Part shown: positions 18,969 to 61,576 of the stretch, piece after piece | How the letters are laid out: every line of letters begins with the position of its first letter | Position numbering within the stretch: the first letter of the stretch is position 1 | Source: Candidatus Gracilibacteria bacterium | Lineage (GTDB): Bacteria > Patescibacteriota > Gracilibacteria > BD1-5 > UBA6164 | DNA length: 64,000 bases | Assembly: GCA_010119145.1 (NCBI GenBank) | Contig: JAACSU010000007.1 | Coordinates: 329,869 to 393,868 of the forward strand | Direction: 5' to 3' | Translations under genes and position numbers: made by a program | The notes under the pieces: generated by a model | What the model was told of the DNA's origin: nothing | Database searches by the model: none | Seen by the model: only the letters and a program-made list of their open reading frames with translations

Positions 18969-19104
18969 CTCTTCACTTCTATTTTGAAGTATATGGGGCT
19001 ATTCTTGGTTTCTATTGGGAGAATTCGTCAGACTCCTATTGCTATCCGGGAGATGTTTGTGACTTCCGAAATCAACACATTCATCCTTAAACGGAACACG
19101 AATT

Positions 19105-19161
19105 GCTAAAGGTCTTGCTGCTTTCAAAGCTTCAACTACTCCTTCACTATCATTTGCATAG
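19105..19161 (+). other. Predicted tmRNA tag reading frame
   Basis: The most plausible tag frame starts at GCT (19105), 110 nt from the 5' end, and encodes AKGLAAFKASTTPSLSFA before TAG (19159-19161). The tag has no TGA and ends SFA rather than the usual LAA. The other frames give very short or non-alanine-starting tags. The resume codon is inferred from position and composition, not from a solved fold. Confidence 0.5.
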
Positions 19162-19423
19162 TGTAAAACGTGGCCTCTCTTAGGAGATGAGTGCGATTGC
19201 CTGCCACACCATTTATACAAACTTGCGTTTAGGAGACATTGTATGAATTATTTTAATCTAAACCGTGATTTGAGTATTTTAAAAATATTTTAGCTCTCGT
19301 CTCGCAACTCAAAACGTTTCTCTCTTCAGCTTTGTCTGTTTTCTCGTTTGAAGGGGAGTATCTAAAACAGACTATGATAGTAGACGTACGAGCTGGCCTC
19401 CCAAGACGTGGGTTCAAATCCCA

Positions 19424-21139
19424 CTAGCTCCACCAAATAGGATTGAATAGAGTTTCGACTTCAGGTTTTACCTGTATTTGAAGCTCTTTTTTGCTGTTTA
19501 TTTGTATGTTCAAAAACAATAATTTAGCAATTTTCCTCTTTTGAACATAACTAGCTTTTTTATAATAGCTTTGAGCATTGTTTAATATATCAATAAACAC
19601 TTCAAGTTCTACTATCTCATTTCTCTCTCATTCATCGAGAGCTTCTATTTCTTTTCTGAGAAACTTTATTTTAGAATCATAATCATTTCTTGTAGCTTCA
19701 TAGATACTTCTTTCCTCATTATCTGTTATTTTAGACATATTAGCTTGAATATATTTCTCTTTTCTTGTTTTAATACGTCCTATTTCAACTTGTTTCTTTT
19801 GTATTTTATCTTTAGTAGTGAGAGTTATATCCTCTAATTTAGTATTTATAGTAACTACATATTCATCAAACTGCTTTTTTGATACCTTAAAGCCTCATAG
19901 TACGTCGATAATCTTATTATCTATATCTTCTAACGAAACACTGAGTTTGTGACTCTTAGAGGCTGTATTTGCACATCTATAGTTTATTTGCGATGGACTT
20001 ACTACATCTTGTAGTTTAAGAAGTTTTCATTTCTTATTTGCTTCATCAATTTTATCAAAGTATCTTTTCTTATTCGGAAGAGAAAAAGTAAAACCATAAT
20101 TATCTTCTGTTTTTATAAAATCTATATCAAAAACTTTAATATCTTCATATATATCTTTTGTACGGCTTTTTTTAATAACAGTAGGATTTTTATAGTATCT
20201 CTCTTGTAGGACTTGAAATTGCTCTTCAGTAATAACAGGGGAGTAATACTTATTAGTCTCTCTTAAATCAGTGACGGTATCTCAATTTATAAACATTCCA
20301 TAATAAAATTCATCTTGAAACATCTTATTGAGCATTGTTTTACTAATAGGTCTTTCTTCTCAAGCTTTTATATAATATCTAGTGTATCAATTTGCATCTA
20401 AGAAATCTTTTATTTTTGATTCTACTTCTCAATTTAGTTTCATATCAAAAGCCTCTTTAATAAGAGGGAAGTATTCAGCATGGGGTTCGTGAAATCCATC
20501 TTCGTTTTGAAAGTATCACGGCTTATGTCTTCCTATAGCTTTTCAAGAGGCTACCTTACTATCATTTCATCTTGTAATATCGTCACTGAGTTTATCACTA
20601 TATTGTTTAGAGAATACAAACCATATTCAGAGCATCATTTTCCCACTTGCTGTATCTTCATAATGGAAGTTAGGGTATTTTACGGATAATACGGTTTTAC
20701 TTTGCTCTCTATTGATTTTAAGCTTGTTTTGATCGAGTAAATCAATGATATCTCAAGCCTCAAGCATATTTCTTGCTTGTCTGTCAGGAGAGTAGCTTAT
20801 GATTCCATTAATCTCTCAGCTTTTCACTTTCTTTATGAGGTTTTTCCATTTCGTTCGTTTTCATGGGACTTTTGCTGTTTCTTGCTCTTTTATAATGAAT
20901 AAATGCCTTGTATCTTGAAAGGTCTTTCTATTTACTAAGTCAGCTTCATTATCCTCTTTATATACTTCAGATTCACTTTCAAAGAGTGAAAAATCTTTTG
21001 GCTTACTTACTATAGTCAGCCCCTCTCTTTCAGCATATGAAACGCAAGCTCGTATTTGGTCAGGTATTGACTGCTTTTGATTGTCTGAGCTTTCGTCAGT
21101 AGATTTCCTGCAATAAATTATATAGTTTATATCGCTCAT
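19424..21139 (-). CDS. Large serine recombinase (site-specific integrase)
   Basis: A 571-residue protein starting MSDINYIIYCRKSTDESS, with the nucleophile Ser13 in the YCRKS motif. The catalytic domain continues through IISYSPDRQARNM (about residue 115). A recombinase DNA-binding domain (about 200-300) and a long charged coiled-coil-like region (about 430-520) follow. The Cys pairs of the usual zinc ribbon are not visible, only YRC remains. The last codons (IWWS-stop) lie in the tmRNA acceptor stem and CCA, so the att core is part of the coding sequence. Such enzymes catalyse directional insertion between attP and attB. It is the final gene of the element's operon. Confidence 0.92.
19427..19435. 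other. Putative attachment core, left (tmRNA side)
   Basis: GCTCCACCA, the last nine bases of the tmRNA. The same nine bases recur at 26912-26920. TTCAAA stands 8 nt before this copy and 12 nt before the other. Short identical cores are usual for serine recombinase sites. Confidence 0.55.
19450..19492 (+). terminator. Hairpin with T-run after tmRNA, inside the recombinase gene
   Basis: GAGTTTC…GAAGCTC outer stem, CAGGT…ACCTG inner stem, then six Ts. On the plus strand it would terminate tmRNA 15 nt after its CCA. On the minus strand it is coding sequence for the recombinase C-terminus. The element thus appears to supply the terminator of the gene it entered. Confidence 0.6.
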
Positions 21140-28366: not shown

Positions 28367-28495
28367 TTACAGTAAAAGGTCGGCAATACTGCCGACCTTT
28401 TTGTTACAAAGCGAAAAGTTTCAAGGACGAGGGACAAGACCTTTGAGATACAATGTCTCAATCAGACCTTTTCCTTTGTGCTGAGTATCGGCCAT
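28367..28495 (-). CDS. Minigene with perfect Shine-Dalgarno (24 aa if TGA stops, 42 aa if TGA = Gly)
   Basis: AGGAGG stands 7 bases before the ATG, the best ribosome site on this strand. The peptide starts MADTQHKGKGLIETLYLKGL and runs to VPRP, then TGA at 28421-28423. Read as glycine, the frame goes on through the terminator hairpin to TAA at 28367. Read as stop, it ends neatly 22 bp before that hairpin. Glycines are GGA/GGT except for this one TGA. No family is recognised. It may be a leader peptide, a foreign gene or a structured RNA. Confidence 0.5.
28376..28403. terminator. Strong bidirectional terminator
   Basis: AAGGTCGGC-AATACT-GCCGACCTT stem followed by Ts on the plus strand and by TACTG then As on the minus strand. 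It serves the SLH gene on the plus strand and could end the minigene transcript from the other side. Confidence 0.85.
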
Positions 28496-55643: not shown

Positions 55644-56231
55644 ATGAATACTCCATCACATTTTCTCCTGCATCTAGGAATAAGAAAATTTTTCAGAAGC
55701 AAATATGACATATATATATCTAAAAGCTTTGTGCTATGAGCTATAGCACCAGATGTAGGACTCTATATTTGCGTACTTGTATATACAATGTATGCTCATT
55801 TTTTTCTTTGATATGAAATGAGTGTTGTATTTAAGACGATGTTTGATGATTTGTATTTTAATAATCCTGTGTGGATTTTTGCATATAATTTTCTACACTC
55901 TATATTTCTTTTAATATTGTTTTTACTGATATCTTGGTATATAAAACATTTCATAAATCAGAGAATTTGAATAATATGTATCTGGTTTTTTATTGCTTGT
56001 TTGCTTCACTCAGCTATAGATATAGTTACTCACCAAGACGATGGACCAAGGATATTTTATCCACTTAGCTTATATCAATTTCAATCTCCAATATCTTATT
56101 GGAATCCTCTGTATTATTGAGGTATTGTATCAAAAATTGAATTTGTATGTGATATTTTGCTTATGTGGTATCTACTTTATTCACCAATTAAAAATAAAAT
56201 TATATGACAAAAAAATACAAAAATTCTATAA
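55644..56231 (+). CDS. Membrane metal-dependent hydrolase-like protein (YdjM/DUF457 type)
   Basis: A 195-residue protein with four membrane helices. The segment LLHSAIDIVTHQDDGPRIFYP in the third quarter holds the H-x3-D-x3-H-type metal ligands. SLYQFQSPISYWNP follows, as in the YdjM family. Its reaction is not known. It overlaps the next gene by 28 bp. Confidence 0.75.
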
Positions 56232-58021
56232 AAATATCAAATGTTCTTAGAAAAAAGAGTATCTTACTGAGTAAGATACTCTTTTGATTCTGTATTTTTG
56301 TGTCACTCTCTCACAGCACTTTTGCATTAACTCAACAATCACAAGATATATATACTCAATTTATAACTCAAGTTGAGAAAAATTATTCTCTATTAGATCA
56401 GGAAATTGTTTTAAAAAAATTGAGATCTAGACTTACGCAGTATTACACATGAGAATTATCTTCTACGAAGTCACAAGTTGTCAGTGAAATAATTGAGCTC
56501 AATCATGAAGCTATTTACGATAATTGGCTTCTTCAAAATCAAAATCAAAATTCTCAAATTTCGCTCGAGCTCAAAACTCGACTGATTTTGAAAGATATAG
56601 ATAAAAATATAGAGTTTCCAAGTTATGTCTCAGGACTTTTAGAAAAGGATTCGATTAGTTATATCTGAGTAAACTCAAATAGAGAGTATGTTGATTGAAA
56701 AGAAATATTTCAGATATCTTACGCTACATATTTTAAAATACTCCCGAGTAATGCAAGCACTCTTTCTCAAAAAAAATGAGTAATCATAAAAGCTTCTAAT
56801 GGCGATTTTCATTTTATAGAGTCATATTCTAGAAATAAAAAGATTCCATATTCTGAACTCTCTGGACAAGCATTTGCATTTATTACTCCAGAATACAAAA
56901 TTCAGTTAGAAAACTGAAAATACAGTGGTTTTATTTTTACAACACTTCAATACTATCCTGATAGGTATGGAGTGTTTGAGAAACAACTTGAAAATTCATG
57001 AAGTGTTATATGAGATATTCTAGTGTACAGAGATGAGTCTTGAAAATACAATTTTGTAAAAAAGTTTACAAAAAGACTTCTTATTTCAGATTCTGAGAGT
57101 TTTTGAATTCCTGAAAAGCATTTATTTTTAAAATATCTTCTTTCAGATGCTAAATTTTTAGAGTCAGATATTCCAGAAAATATGAAAAAAATAAAGTCTT
57201 TTACGAAGACTTTAACAAACTGACAAACTGACGATGAAGCTCTGGAGACTATTTATGATTGGGTACTTAATAATGTTGAATACACAAAAGATTTAGATCT
57301 CGATGATATGAAAATATTTTCATGAAGTGAAGCATTTTTTAGAAAAGACTGAGTCTGTACTGCATACTCTAAACTTATGGTCTATATGATGATGTACTCG
57401 TGAATGTATGACCTTGAAATGATAGAATGATATGTCATTGATGCTCCTGACTTTCCTAATATATGACACGCATGGGTGAGATATAAAGATAGATTTTATG
57501 ATCCAACTTTTGATGACCCTATAGGTGCACTTGCTAATAAAACTCGTGATGAATATAAGTATTTTCAAATACCTCAGGATATTTTTTATACAAATAGGTT
57601 TCATTATGAGGATTTACCAGAGTCATTTTATACAGCGAGTAAAAATGATATAGAACAATTTATTTATGAATGACTTCTGGCACTTGTTCCTAAATATAGA
57701 GGTGAATTATCAAAATATGAAATATTTAATCCAGTAGTGTTTAGAGATACATTTAATATCTCTTCAAATGTTATTTTGAATCCTGAAATTATCGCTCAAA
57801 ACGTGTGATTTGAAACAGTGGAATGAAAAACTTTTAGTTACACTAATAATGGAACTACCTATCAAATTTCAGCTCTTAATTATTATCTTATCACTGCTGA
57901 TAATACTGAAACTGTACTTTCACAATTATCTTATAATCTAGATGATACAAAACTTTATAAGTGGTTATTAGAGGATGGAAGCAGTGAATGGAGGCTCTGA
58001 TATAATATAAAATTAAGATAA
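56204..58021 (+). CDS. Secreted transglutaminase-like protein
   Basis: A 605-residue protein. A signal helix lies near residues 25-45 and a long N-terminal region of unknown type follows. The papain-like transglutaminase core carries Cys385 in DGVCTAYSKLM, His422 in IGHAWVRYK and Asp433 in YDPTFDDP, a complete Cys-His-Asp triad. It could crosslink or cleave proteins outside the cell. The start overlaps the membrane hydrolase gene, so expression is probably coupled. Confidence 0.8.
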
Positions 58022-58043: not shown

Positions 58044-58072
58044 TTGACAAATAAGTCTGTTATTGTTAATAT
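58044..58072 (+). promoter_or_regulatory. Strong sigma-70-like promoter of a minigene
   Basis: TTGACA (58044-58049), 17-bp spacer, TAATAT (58067-58072). This is the best promoter match in the window. About 75 bp of leader follow before the minigene ATG. Confidence 0.75.
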
Positions 58073-58147
58073 CAATAGTACCTCAACAATTTGTATGGGG
58101 CATCGGCAACTCGTATTGCTCGATTAATAGTCTAGGAGGGACTAAAT

Positions 58148-58300
58148 ATGAAGTCGCGTTTGATTGTGTCAAAAAACCCGAAGAAACAAGCTAAGCAACA
58201 GAGCAAGGTTCAACGGATGAAGAACGCAGCGATTAAAACTGGTATCTCGGGCAAAGCTCTTGATACTCGGAAAAAAGAAACAGTTGGCCGAGCAGGCTGA
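58148..58300 (+). CDS. Basic minigene (50 aa if TGA stops), atypical codon use
   Basis: AGGAGG lies 8 bases before the ATG, below a consensus promoter. The product starts MKSRLIVSKNPKKQAKQQSK and is Lys/Arg/Gln-rich, ending VGRAG. Codons such as CGG, CGC, CCG, TCG and GGC are unlike all neighbours. TGA at 58298-58300 is followed at once by a GGGAGCGC/GCGCTCCC hairpin. With TGA as Gly there is no stop before the helicase gene, which lies in the same frame (ATG 58436). So TGA probably stops here, or the ORF is not translated to its end. It may be foreign. Function unknown. Confidence 0.5.
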   Translation: MKSRLIVSKNPKKQAKQQSKVQRMKNAAIKTGISGKALDTRKKETVGRAG

Positions 58301-58377
58301 ATTTGGGAGCGCATTTATGCGCTCCCTTCAACATATATGAAAACTAATATCTTCTTTAATCAGGAGATATTTTTATT
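58301..58377 (+). terminator. Two hairpins after the minigene
   Basis: A GGGAGCGC…GCGCTCCC hairpin (about 58305-58327) without a T-run, then AATATCT…AGATATT followed by TTTTTA (about 58342-58377), which can serve as the terminator. Confidence 0.55.
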
Positions 58378-58435
58378 TTGAATATATATCGTATATAAAA
58401 AATTATTGTCTTTTATAAGTATTTCACTACACTAC

Positions 58436-61400
58436 ATGAAATACTTTTTTGCTTATACAATTGTGGATACAAAAACCTTTGAACTAAACTACTGAAAACT
58501 CAATCCAGAGCAACAAGATGCAGTGAATACACTTGATGGACCAGTCATGGTTATAGCGTGACCTGGAACAGGGAAGACCCAGATTATTGGGATGCGTACT
58601 GCAAATATTATTCTAAAGTCTTGAGTACATCCAGAAAACATCATGATTACGACTTTTACAGAAGCGTGAGTGATAGCTATTCGAGAGCGACTTATCTCAA
58701 TGATTTGAAGTGACGCGTATAAGGTGTATGTTTCAACGGTTCACAGCTTCGCTCAGGATGTTATAAAAAGTTTCCCTGAAAAGTTTACAGTAGAAAAACT
58801 TGATACCCCAATAGATGACATAGAGAGTTTAGAGCTCATTTCTGATATAGTTGGATCACTCCTCTCTGAGCAAAAGCTACAGTATTTGATGAGTTATGGA
58901 GATCCATTGTTTTATGTGCGGGCTATAAAAAATGCACTCAATAATCTCAAACGTGAATGAGTGAGTGTTACAAAATTTAAGCTAAAAATAAAAGAAGAAA
59001 CAGAAAAATCACTTGCTTGGTTGGAAGAAAAACGAAATAATAAAAGAATTAAAAAAATAGAAAAATATGAAGCTGAACATGAGCAAAAGATAGGGAAGCT
59101 TACGGAACTTGCGACAATTTTTGAAATATATAATGCAAAACTTAGGGATCAACATCTCTATGATTTTAATGATATGATTAATTTTGTCCTTGAAAAGTTT
59201 AGAGAAGATGATGAATTACGAACATATTATGCTGAAGTGTATCAATATATTATGTTAGATGAGTATCAAGATACAAATAACCCGCAAAATGAAATAGTGG
59301 ATTTAATACTTTCAGTATCAGAGACTCCAAATATCATGGTGGTTGGAGATGATGATCAGTCTATTTACAGGTTTCAAGGAGCAAATATAGAAAATATGCT
59401 TGAGTTTACTACAAAATATCAAAACTCTAAGATTATTATTTTAGACAAAAACTACAGATCTCAACAATGAATACTTAATGCTGCAGAAAATCTTATAGAA
59501 AATAATTCTGAGAGACTCATAAACAAAATCCCAGGTCTCAGTAAAAAATTAGATTCACAAACTTGATGAGTCAGAGAAGTTCCAAGTATATGTATTACTA
59601 AAGACGATATAGATGAAAAACTCTCTGTTGTTGAAAGAGTTTTGTCACTCTTACGTTCTTGAATTCAAGCAAGTGAAATTGCTATCATTGTACGTTCTAA
59701 CAAAGAAGTCATAACTTATGGTGATATACTTAAAGAACATGAAATTGCTGTTACATCTAAACTTGAAAGCAATATTCTTGAGTCAGATTATGTAAAATCG
59801 ATTTTTACATTTTTTAAGGTACTATCAGATCCTTATAGTTATGAGACAGATTTTCTAAATCTCCTAAGATCAAGTCTAATTGATATAGATGGAATGGATA
59901 TACTTAAAATAAATACGTATCTCTACAGACAAAATTATTCTAAAAGAGGTCACACAAAACTCAAGCTATTTGATGTACTTTCAGACTCAGCTGCTTTGCA
60001 ATTTATTTGAGTACAATGAGGACATAAAATTCATGAATTCATATCAAAATATGTAGAGGCACAAGAACAGTTTTCACGTCGAAATTTTATTTTAGCACTT
60101 TCATGGTTTTTATCAGAATTCAAAATTCTTGATACCGTGCAATCTCAGTGAAATTTTCAAGATCTACAAGATGTATATTCACTTTTTCACACGATTAAAT
60201 CTTGGGCTTGAATTAATAATAATATTTCCTTGAGATCAATCATTAATAAATATGAATTATATTTTAAGTATGGGTACAGAATAAATAGAACGACCTCGCT
60301 ATGAGATGATAGCTGAGTACAAGTTCTCACTGCTCACAGTTCTAAATGACTTGAATATGAGTATGTGTTCATTCCAGGCTTATATACTTGAAACTGGGAT
60401 ACTAAATCAAACAGAGAGCTCATACCACTTCCTTCAGGTATTGCCTGAAATGGTTTTCAAGCTACCCAAGAGGATATTCTGAGTGACGCTGAACTAAAAA
60501 ATCATAATAAAGAACGGCAAATGCAAGAGGATAGACGGCTCTTTTTTGTTGCACTCACGAGAGCAAAAAAACAATTATATTTAAGTTTCCCCAGTTCAAT
60601 ACTTTGAAGTGTAAAACTCATATCACCATTTTTATGAGAAATCTGAGATAGTATTGCAGTAGATTTTGTATCTACACAAGACGAGAAATCAAATGAAATG
60701 ATTCAAGAAATGTTACAAGAGTCCAAGCTTATTAAGCACAATAATGAGGAAATTAATTTTATACAAGAGTTTTTCTTACGCTACAAGCTGTCAGTGAGTG
60801 ACCTCAACACATTTTTAATAAGTCCTAAAGATTTTTTGTATAGGTCAGTATTCAAATATCCATTTGAAGAAAATGAAAACTCTATTTTTGGGACTATGTA
60901 CCATAGAACATTAGAACTTTTTTACAAAAAAATACAAGACACATGAGAAGTCCAAGAGTATGAATATTTAGAATATGTATTTTTGCGTCAACTAGAAAAA
61001 GAATACCTTACTTTTGAAGAGTTCCAGAGACTGAAATCAAGGTGACTTGAGTCTCTCAAGTGATATTATGAAACATATAACGGTACTTTTGTAGCACCTT
61101 TAAAGACTGAATATAAGTTCTCTAGAAAAAATATATTTTTTGAGACTATCCCATTAACTTGAATCATTGATAAAATAGAGCTTCTAAGCGAGGATTTTAC
61201 TGGAAATGATTCGTGAAGTGCTTTATTTTCTCAAAATATTAAGCTCACAGATTACAAAACATGATCTGTGAAATATATTTGAGAAATAAAGTGAGTAAAC
61301 AAAGATTGAAAAAAAGATGAATGATTTGAAAGAGGGAGATACTGACGACAACTCATGTTTTATAAGCTATTATTTGAAAATGATTCAGAGTTATCTTCTC

Positions 61401-61576
61401 AGTACAACTTATGTGAGCTAGAGCTCGATTTTTGTGAATGAAAAAAATGAAATTATAAAAGGGTCAGTGTTGAAGTGAACGAAGATGAATACGCTGAGTT
61501 TAAATCTCTCATAAAAGAAACCTACTCTAAAATGATAGATATAGGTTTTTGGAAAGATTTTTTAAACTTAAAATAG
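58436..61576 (+). CDS. UvrD-like helicase fused to a RecB-like (PD-DEXK) nuclease
   Basis: A 1046-residue protein. The SF1 helicase motifs are LNPEQQDAV (Q), AGPGTGKTQII (I), MLDEYQDTNNPQ (II), VVGDDDQSIYRFQGA (III), LDKNYRSQQ (IV), TAHSSKGLEYEYVF (V) and FFVALTRAKKQLYL (VI). The C-terminal 280 residues have the nuclease motifs TGIIDKIELL, LTDYKTGS and GRQLMFYKLLFE. AddA- and RecB-like enzymes of this kind process DNA ends. Start ATG 58436 is uncertain, since the frame is open from the minigene. No separate AddB was seen. Confidence 0.9.

Follow-up and report, generated by a model that had tools for sequence, protein, structure and literature searches.

Standard-code gene cassettes on the chromosome of a Gracilibacterium that reads TGA as glycine, and their possible translation by another bacterium's ribosomes

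A minigene between two native genes

The window, i.e. the whole stretch of 64,000 nucleotides that was analyzed, belongs to the genome G000 (1.28 Mb, 97% complete). Near its right end, a slot between two native genes contains a minigene. The left border of the slot is a native code-25 gene (56204..58021, + strand; 605 aa) with 20 TGA codons for glycine and an orthologue at the corresponding place in the sister genome G004; by inspection, its product appears to be transglutaminase-like. The right border is a native UvrD-like helicase gene (58463..61576, + strand; 1037 aa), which starts with GTG and whose Walker A motif contains a TGA glycine codon (A-TGA-PGTGKT).

The initial annotation had listed a consensus promoter, a perfect Shine-Dalgarno (SD) motif, GC-richer codons, a basic peptide, and a TGA just in front of a hairpin, and these features were all found. 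The sigma70-type promoter TTGACA-N17-TAATAT (58044..58072, + strand) is followed by the SD motif AGGAGGG (58134..58140, + strand), which is located 7 nt upstream of the start codon. The open reading frame (58148..58300, + strand) extends from the ATG at 58148 to the TGA at 58298-58300, contains no TGA among its 50 codons, and encodes a basic protein of 50 aa (MKSRLIVSKNPKK...RKKETVGRAG). Directly downstream of the TGA lies a perfect GC-rich hairpin without a T-run (GGGAGCGCATTTATGCGCTCCC; 58305..58326, + strand). A second hairpin with a T-run (ATATCTTCT/AGGAGATAT; 58347..58379, + strand) is the probable transcript terminator, and similar elements are present in G006 and G007. It had also been claimed that the frame was open to the end of the helicase gene, so that the two genes were fused. 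Under code 25, the frame from 58148 to 61576 is indeed free of TAA and TAG: none precedes the terminator, and the next one, 3276 nt further on, is the helicase end. However, the helicase starts at the GTG at 58463, in agreement with its orthologue in the sister species, and has its own upstream region. Thus, the "fusion" of 1142 aa is not a gene.

The position and spacing of the promoter are the same in the syntenic slots of G004, G005, G007, and G008. TTGACA/TAnnnT was also found upstream of native genes, tRNAs, and rRNA, and the promoter sequence was therefore dropped as a discriminator between cassettes and native genes. Because this promoter type is common to native genes, the minigene is likely to be transcribed in its own cell.

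One of the eight genomes of the genus, G004 (MAG LH_M94), contains an orthologue of the minigene in the corresponding slot, which is flanked by the orthologous gene pair. It encodes 46 aa and ends with a TAA, which is followed by a canonical terminator; a GC hairpin at the corresponding place carries a T-run. This TAA is absent from the minigene, and its TGA follows four codons further on, just upstream of the hairpin. Homologues continuing past the TGA, which the initial annotation had named as evidence against termination, were thus not encountered. The two proteins are 87% identical, and the base differences at codon positions 1/2/3 number 4/2/22, with a dN of 0.083, a dS of 1.48, and a dN/dS ratio of about 0.06. 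This pattern indicates selection at the protein level. Furthermore, the pS of 0.65 is near that of the neighboring helicase gene (0.72), and therefore both were most likely inherited together. Judged by this comparison, the minigene is a real gene. According to the earlier suggestion, the transcript might act otherwise. A non-coding RNA with an incidental reading frame would be compatible with the strong hairpins and with a folding of the strand that is somewhat better than that of shuffled sequences (z -2.4), but the codon position differences and the dN/dS ratio largely refute such a role and make it highly improbable.

Searches with the peptide in Pfam, 84,980 GTDB genomes, viral contigs, and phages and plasmids yielded neither a family nor a donor. 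The sole match among the GTDB genomes was the sister MAG LH_M94, and an isolated partial match was seen at G036 C1:211031 (E 0.002).

Genetic code, translation initiation, and codon usage of the cell

The native genes of G000 read TGA as glycine and practically never end on it. In comparisons with orthologues of two sister species (298 pairs), native TGA codons aligned with GGN 1865 times and far more rarely with other residues, and in only one pair was a TGA near the stop of the partner. A second recoding, at CGG, as reported for Absconditabacteria (PMC8629427), was rejected, as CGG is arginine in G000. No tRNA with a UCA anticodon was present among 38 tRNAs found with ARAGORN and Rfam (C6, C7, C8, C10, C15), which is no argument, as the assembly may miss one; even so, TGA is the most common glycine codon in G000. 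The tRNAs of C6 and C15 lack an encoded CCA.

The initial annotation had proposed a check for release factor 2. G000 encodes a single class-I release factor (one PF03462 match) with the PxT motif of RF1 (PETESKGRVHTST). A second class-I release factor or RF2 (prfB) was found neither in G000, at 97% completeness, nor in any of the 36 genomes searched, 33 of which had exactly one PF03462 match and three of which had none. The absence of prfB in BD1-5 has already been published (PMC6851277), as has code 25 (UGA=Gly) in Gracilibacteria and Absconditabacteria without prfB (PMC4032931, PMC6851277, PMC8629427). With RF1 only, an RF2 of the own cell cannot end the minigene. This constrains the alternative, raised at the outset, that TGA still ends it: termination there is supported by the TAA four codons earlier in the orthologue, by the lack of a backup stop, and by eight further cassettes that are alike (see below), but not by an RF2 of this cell. 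A tmRNA, which bears on what becomes of mRNAs that lack a stop, is located at 18995-19435 of the window; it was found with Rfam and missed by ARAGORN.

The minigene differs from the native genes. Native code-25 genes contain TGA as glycine and end with TAA or TAG, and they lack an SD motif and have a GC3 of about 0.21. A canonical SD match of at least 5 nt was found for 1.4% of the native genes, which is less than for random intergenic positions of G000 (5.9%), in contrast to six of the seven slot ORFs (Fisher p 1.9e-10). Most cassettes outside the slot were retrieved by a detector that demanded an SD motif and a high GC content, and therefore the SD statistics rest on these seven ORFs. The anti-SD region of the 16S rRNA (G000 C8:225047-226522) is altered: in 11 genomes of the order that were read, the 3'-end is GGACUAUCUCC (in one genome GGACUACCUCU), versus the canonical GGAUCACCUCC. 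Given the altered anti-SD and the SD-less native genes, native initiation in this order must work in some other way. Several cassette SD motifs (AGGAGAU) pair with the altered anti-SD of the own cell equally well or better; a match to the canonical versus the own anti-SD did not discriminate and was discarded.

The GC3 of the cassettes is about twice that of the native genes. For native genes, the mean is 0.21, whereas the minigene has a GC3 of 0.46, a value attained by only 0.17% of 11,201 native windows of 50 codons. The 99.9th percentile of native GC3 is 0.40, below the minigene and most of the slot cassettes (slot ORFs 0.33-0.55). In the minigene and its G004 orthologue, GC3 is 0.46 and 0.52 at a dS of 1.48. 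Because GC3 was kept while the synonymous sites were nearly turned over, the codon usage is maintained, rather than being the fading trace of an import.

A genus-wide class of cassettes

Upstream of the same helicase gene, other small genes of similar build are present in four further genomes. In G005, MAVDPTNW...ESKK-TGA overlaps via ATGA with MSQPVLPG...DDLPD-TGA, and in G006, MTECNDW...TGK-TGA overlaps via ATGA with MSAQKTNP...DDAN-TAG. G007 contains MAKSKRKKRGG...HRSR-TGA, and G001 contains MARKKSSDAV...VFAFA-TGA-TGA; in G008, which belongs to another genus, the slot holds an AT-rich ORF that ends with TAG. The first ORF of G005 seems to be a relative of the first one of G006, and the remaining slot genes are unrelated. 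Across species, the promoter position was thus kept and the contents were replaced. The ATGA stop-start overlaps make sense only when TGA is a stop codon.

Similar minigenes in related genomes, a search for which had been proposed in the initial annotation, were found in six species of the genus. Instead of being a lone oddity, the minigene belongs to a class of about 24 cassette ORFs, several of which are unrelated genes in the minigene's slot. The detector looked between native genes for standard-code ORFs that were GC-rich and had an SD motif. The scan covered 1.06 Mb (G000), 0.49 Mb (G005), and 0.10 Mb (G004), all approximate, and rRNA, tRNA, and one ferredoxin fragment among the matches were set aside by hand. 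G000 contains cassettes at C7:115567(-), C7:142802, C7:143166, C7:358289-358363(-), C8:40157, C8:40560, and C8:191139, and C7:189622-190179, the GC3-richest gene of G000 (0.61), joins the class by its composition. Three cassettes were found on C12 of G004, and G005 contains C13:122000(-), C13:217036(-), C13:235459, and two on C15. The cassette at C7:358289-358363 is the second one in the window (28421..28495, - strand): its ORF MADTQHKGKGLIETLYLKGLVPRP has the SD motif AGGAGG, a TGA, and the terminator hairpin AAAAGGTCGGCAGTATTGCCGACCTTTT, and the next in-frame TAA follows only past the hairpin. The same cassette loci occur in independent MAGs, which rules out an assembly error or contamination. 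In four other genera, the detector found no GC-rich cassettes, in chunks of about 210 kb that are too small a sample for strict genus-specificity.

A hand count of the 24 stop codons gave 9 TGA, 12 TAA, and 3 TAG. In all nine TGA-ended cassettes, the next in-frame TAA or TAG lies past the terminator hairpin (the G006 hairpin was read directly from the sequence), and therefore these messages would be stop-less under code 25. Two orthologous pairs have a TGA in one member and a TAA in the other at similar lengths, namely the minigene pair (50/46 aa) and G000 C8:40560 (102 aa) with its counterpart on G005 C15 (100 aa).

Several slots are common to more than one species, but their contents have diverged or been replaced. 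These are C7:142802/143166 with G004 C12, C7:115567 with G004 C12:37815, and C8:40560 with G005 C15; C8:40560 and its G005 counterpart both adjoin ribonucleotide reductase. For C7:143166 and its G004 counterpart, dN (0.23) exceeds dS (0.14). G000 C7:142802-143327 and G004 C12:9260-9828 are tandem cassettes with similar terminators; in the first cassette of each tandem, the C-terminus AEQPxxPQ..AE is kept and the N-terminus differs between the species. At G000 C8:40157-41526, two cassettes with SD motifs lie beside a gene with a NADAR domain and ribonucleotide reductase, and on G005 C15, next to the same neighbor, a related protein is encoded together with a second SD-bearing gene. The cassette at G005 C13:217036-217272 (- strand; SD motif GAGGAGGTGAGG) is antisense within a type IV secretion system (T4SS) cluster, beside a VirD4-like gene.

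The products comprise small basic peptides (minigene, G007, N-terminus in G001), peptides with one or two transmembrane segments, and, by inspection, proteins with a signal peptide. The 185-aa protein of C7:189622-190179 resembles VPLPA-CTERM/exosortase sorting proteins (TIGR03370) in its signal peptide and its C-terminal SPVPIPAAGLLLLAALGSVAAFGRKK. However, its score of 22.5 bits (E 8e-5, residues 149-172) is slightly below the curated cut-off of 25.35, and a single search of 21 genomes with one Pfam model yielded no exosortase. The other cassette products that were tested against Pfam had no convincing family.

Foreign-type GC content and codon usage, the proteobacterial type of the VPLPA-CTERM sorting signal, and the presence of unrelated cassettes in one slot of sister species would all suit passengers of mobile elements or recent horizontal transfer, i.e. 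standard-code DNA of a host or phage that has not yet ameliorated. We consider this origin unlikely: it is already weakened by the dS of 1.48 at one and the same locus, the minigene pair is syntenic, close to the helicase in synonymous divergence, and under strong purifying selection, which argues for vertical inheritance with a maintained GC3, and searches of phage, plasmid, and viral collections (IMG/VR scans) turned up no relatives of the cassettes.

The cassettes might also be normal small genes that the own cell expresses strongly, helped by better codons and an SD motif. TGA would then be read as glycine, and the cell would tolerate an extended product or a rescue by tmRNA. Codon bias can increase with expression, promoters and terminators are strong, and 15 of the 24 cassettes end with TAA or TAG. 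This explanation is nevertheless quite unlikely in view of the native GC3 range, the overall lack of SD motifs in native genes, the nine stop-less messages, and the ATGA overlaps. Alternatively, UGA could be ended in the own cell by an unidentified or condition-specific activity, e.g. an RF2 that a standard-code phage brings in on infection, and the cassettes would be infection-triggered genes. Native-type promoters and SD motifs that also suit the own anti-SD agree with this, and code-11-compatible phages have been predicted for Gracilibacteria (PMC10746230). Yet, in those phages TGA is backed up by further stops, so that an RF2 is not needed (PMC10746230), no relative encodes a second release factor, and the use of SD motifs and GC-rich codons is left unexplained, so that this possibility also appears rather improbable.

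Interpretation and comparison with known systems

We tentatively favor the explanation that the cassettes are retained in order to be translated by ribosomes that use the standard code, most likely those of a host or prey. The VPLPA-CTERM-like product of the GC3-richest gene, in genomes in which no exosortase was detected, agrees with this. Their SD motifs, codon usage, and stops are unlike the rest of the genome and thus point away from own-cell translation; taken together, a standard-code, SD-using ribosome would be the simplest reading. On the code-25 chromosome, such a cassette has an SD motif, GC-richer codons without TGA for glycine, any standard stop, and a GC hairpin or terminator. Once its DNA or RNA had been transferred, a different cell would make the product, namely a bacterial host or prey with the standard code. 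The producer itself would read UGA as glycine, its ribosomes would run off the end of the mRNA, and the outcome would be an extended product or clearance by tmRNA, so that TGA may be a lock that keeps the product switched off in the cell of origin.

A dependence on other bacteria has been suggested for Gracilibacteria (PMC11452946), and in the T4SS of Patescibacteria a relaxase is mostly absent and the substrate is not known (PMC12102498). In G000, a T4SS cluster (C8:110305-115499) comprises a gene for a coupling ATPase that resembles VirD4 (T4SS-DNA_transf, E 1.4e-13), next to three T4SS_pilin genes, and could possibly provide the transfer route. Together with the stops, SD motifs, and codon usage of the cassettes, this dependence and the encoded T4SS led us to propose host-directed genes. 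Several findings speak against a host: T4SS are common across CPR, the 15 cassettes that end with TAA or TAG could be made at home, the promoters are of the native type, several SD motifs also suit the altered anti-SD of the own cell, the VPLPA match is just below its cut-off, and the lack of homologues in the phage, plasmid, and viral collections gives no pointer to a particular host. In its most far-reaching form, the proposal is speculative: a parasitic or predatory recoded bacterium may keep standard-code genes by selection and deliver them as nucleic acid for expression by a bacterial host, with the code difference silencing them in the producer, as an inter-bacterial equivalent of T-DNA.

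The native genes of G000 obey code 25 as described for lineages without prfB, but that literature describes one code per genome (PMC4032931, PMC6851277, PMC8629427). The code-11-compatible phages of Gracilibacteria and Absconditabacteria likewise have standard-code-compatible genes without in-frame TGA that are tied to code-25 bacteria (PMC10746230). However, the phage TGA is closely backed by other stops, so that both codes work, whereas the cassettes are chromosomal, all nine TGA-ended ones lack a backup before the terminator, and at least the minigene is vertically inherited. In the literature, we came across no description of a code-25 genome in which chromosomal genes retain UGA as a stop.

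If the second gene set is indeed for a host, it would reveal how ultrasmall parasites reprogram their bacterial hosts, and would be a possible substrate for the widespread, relaxase-poor T4SS of Patescibacteria. Such genes could then be searched for by sequence only, as ORFs of a recoded genome that follow the standard code, carry an SD motif, and are GC-rich. We know of no prior report of a chromosome with two gene sets for two decoding systems.

The T-DNA of Agrobacterium carries recipient-type expression signals on genes of the donor genome and is sent through a T4SS. The likeness to the cassettes is an analogy of how they would work, not one of membership. For the cassettes, borders, a relaxase, and transfer would have to be assumed, and delivery would be to a bacterium. 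The signals also differ, being eukaryotic promoters and polyadenylation signals in T-DNA, and stop codon, SD motif, and codon usage here, all three unlike those of the donor, together with a promoter of the native type. What the two would share is a conjugation-like T4SS and genes that reside in the genome of the donor but bear the signals of the recipient.
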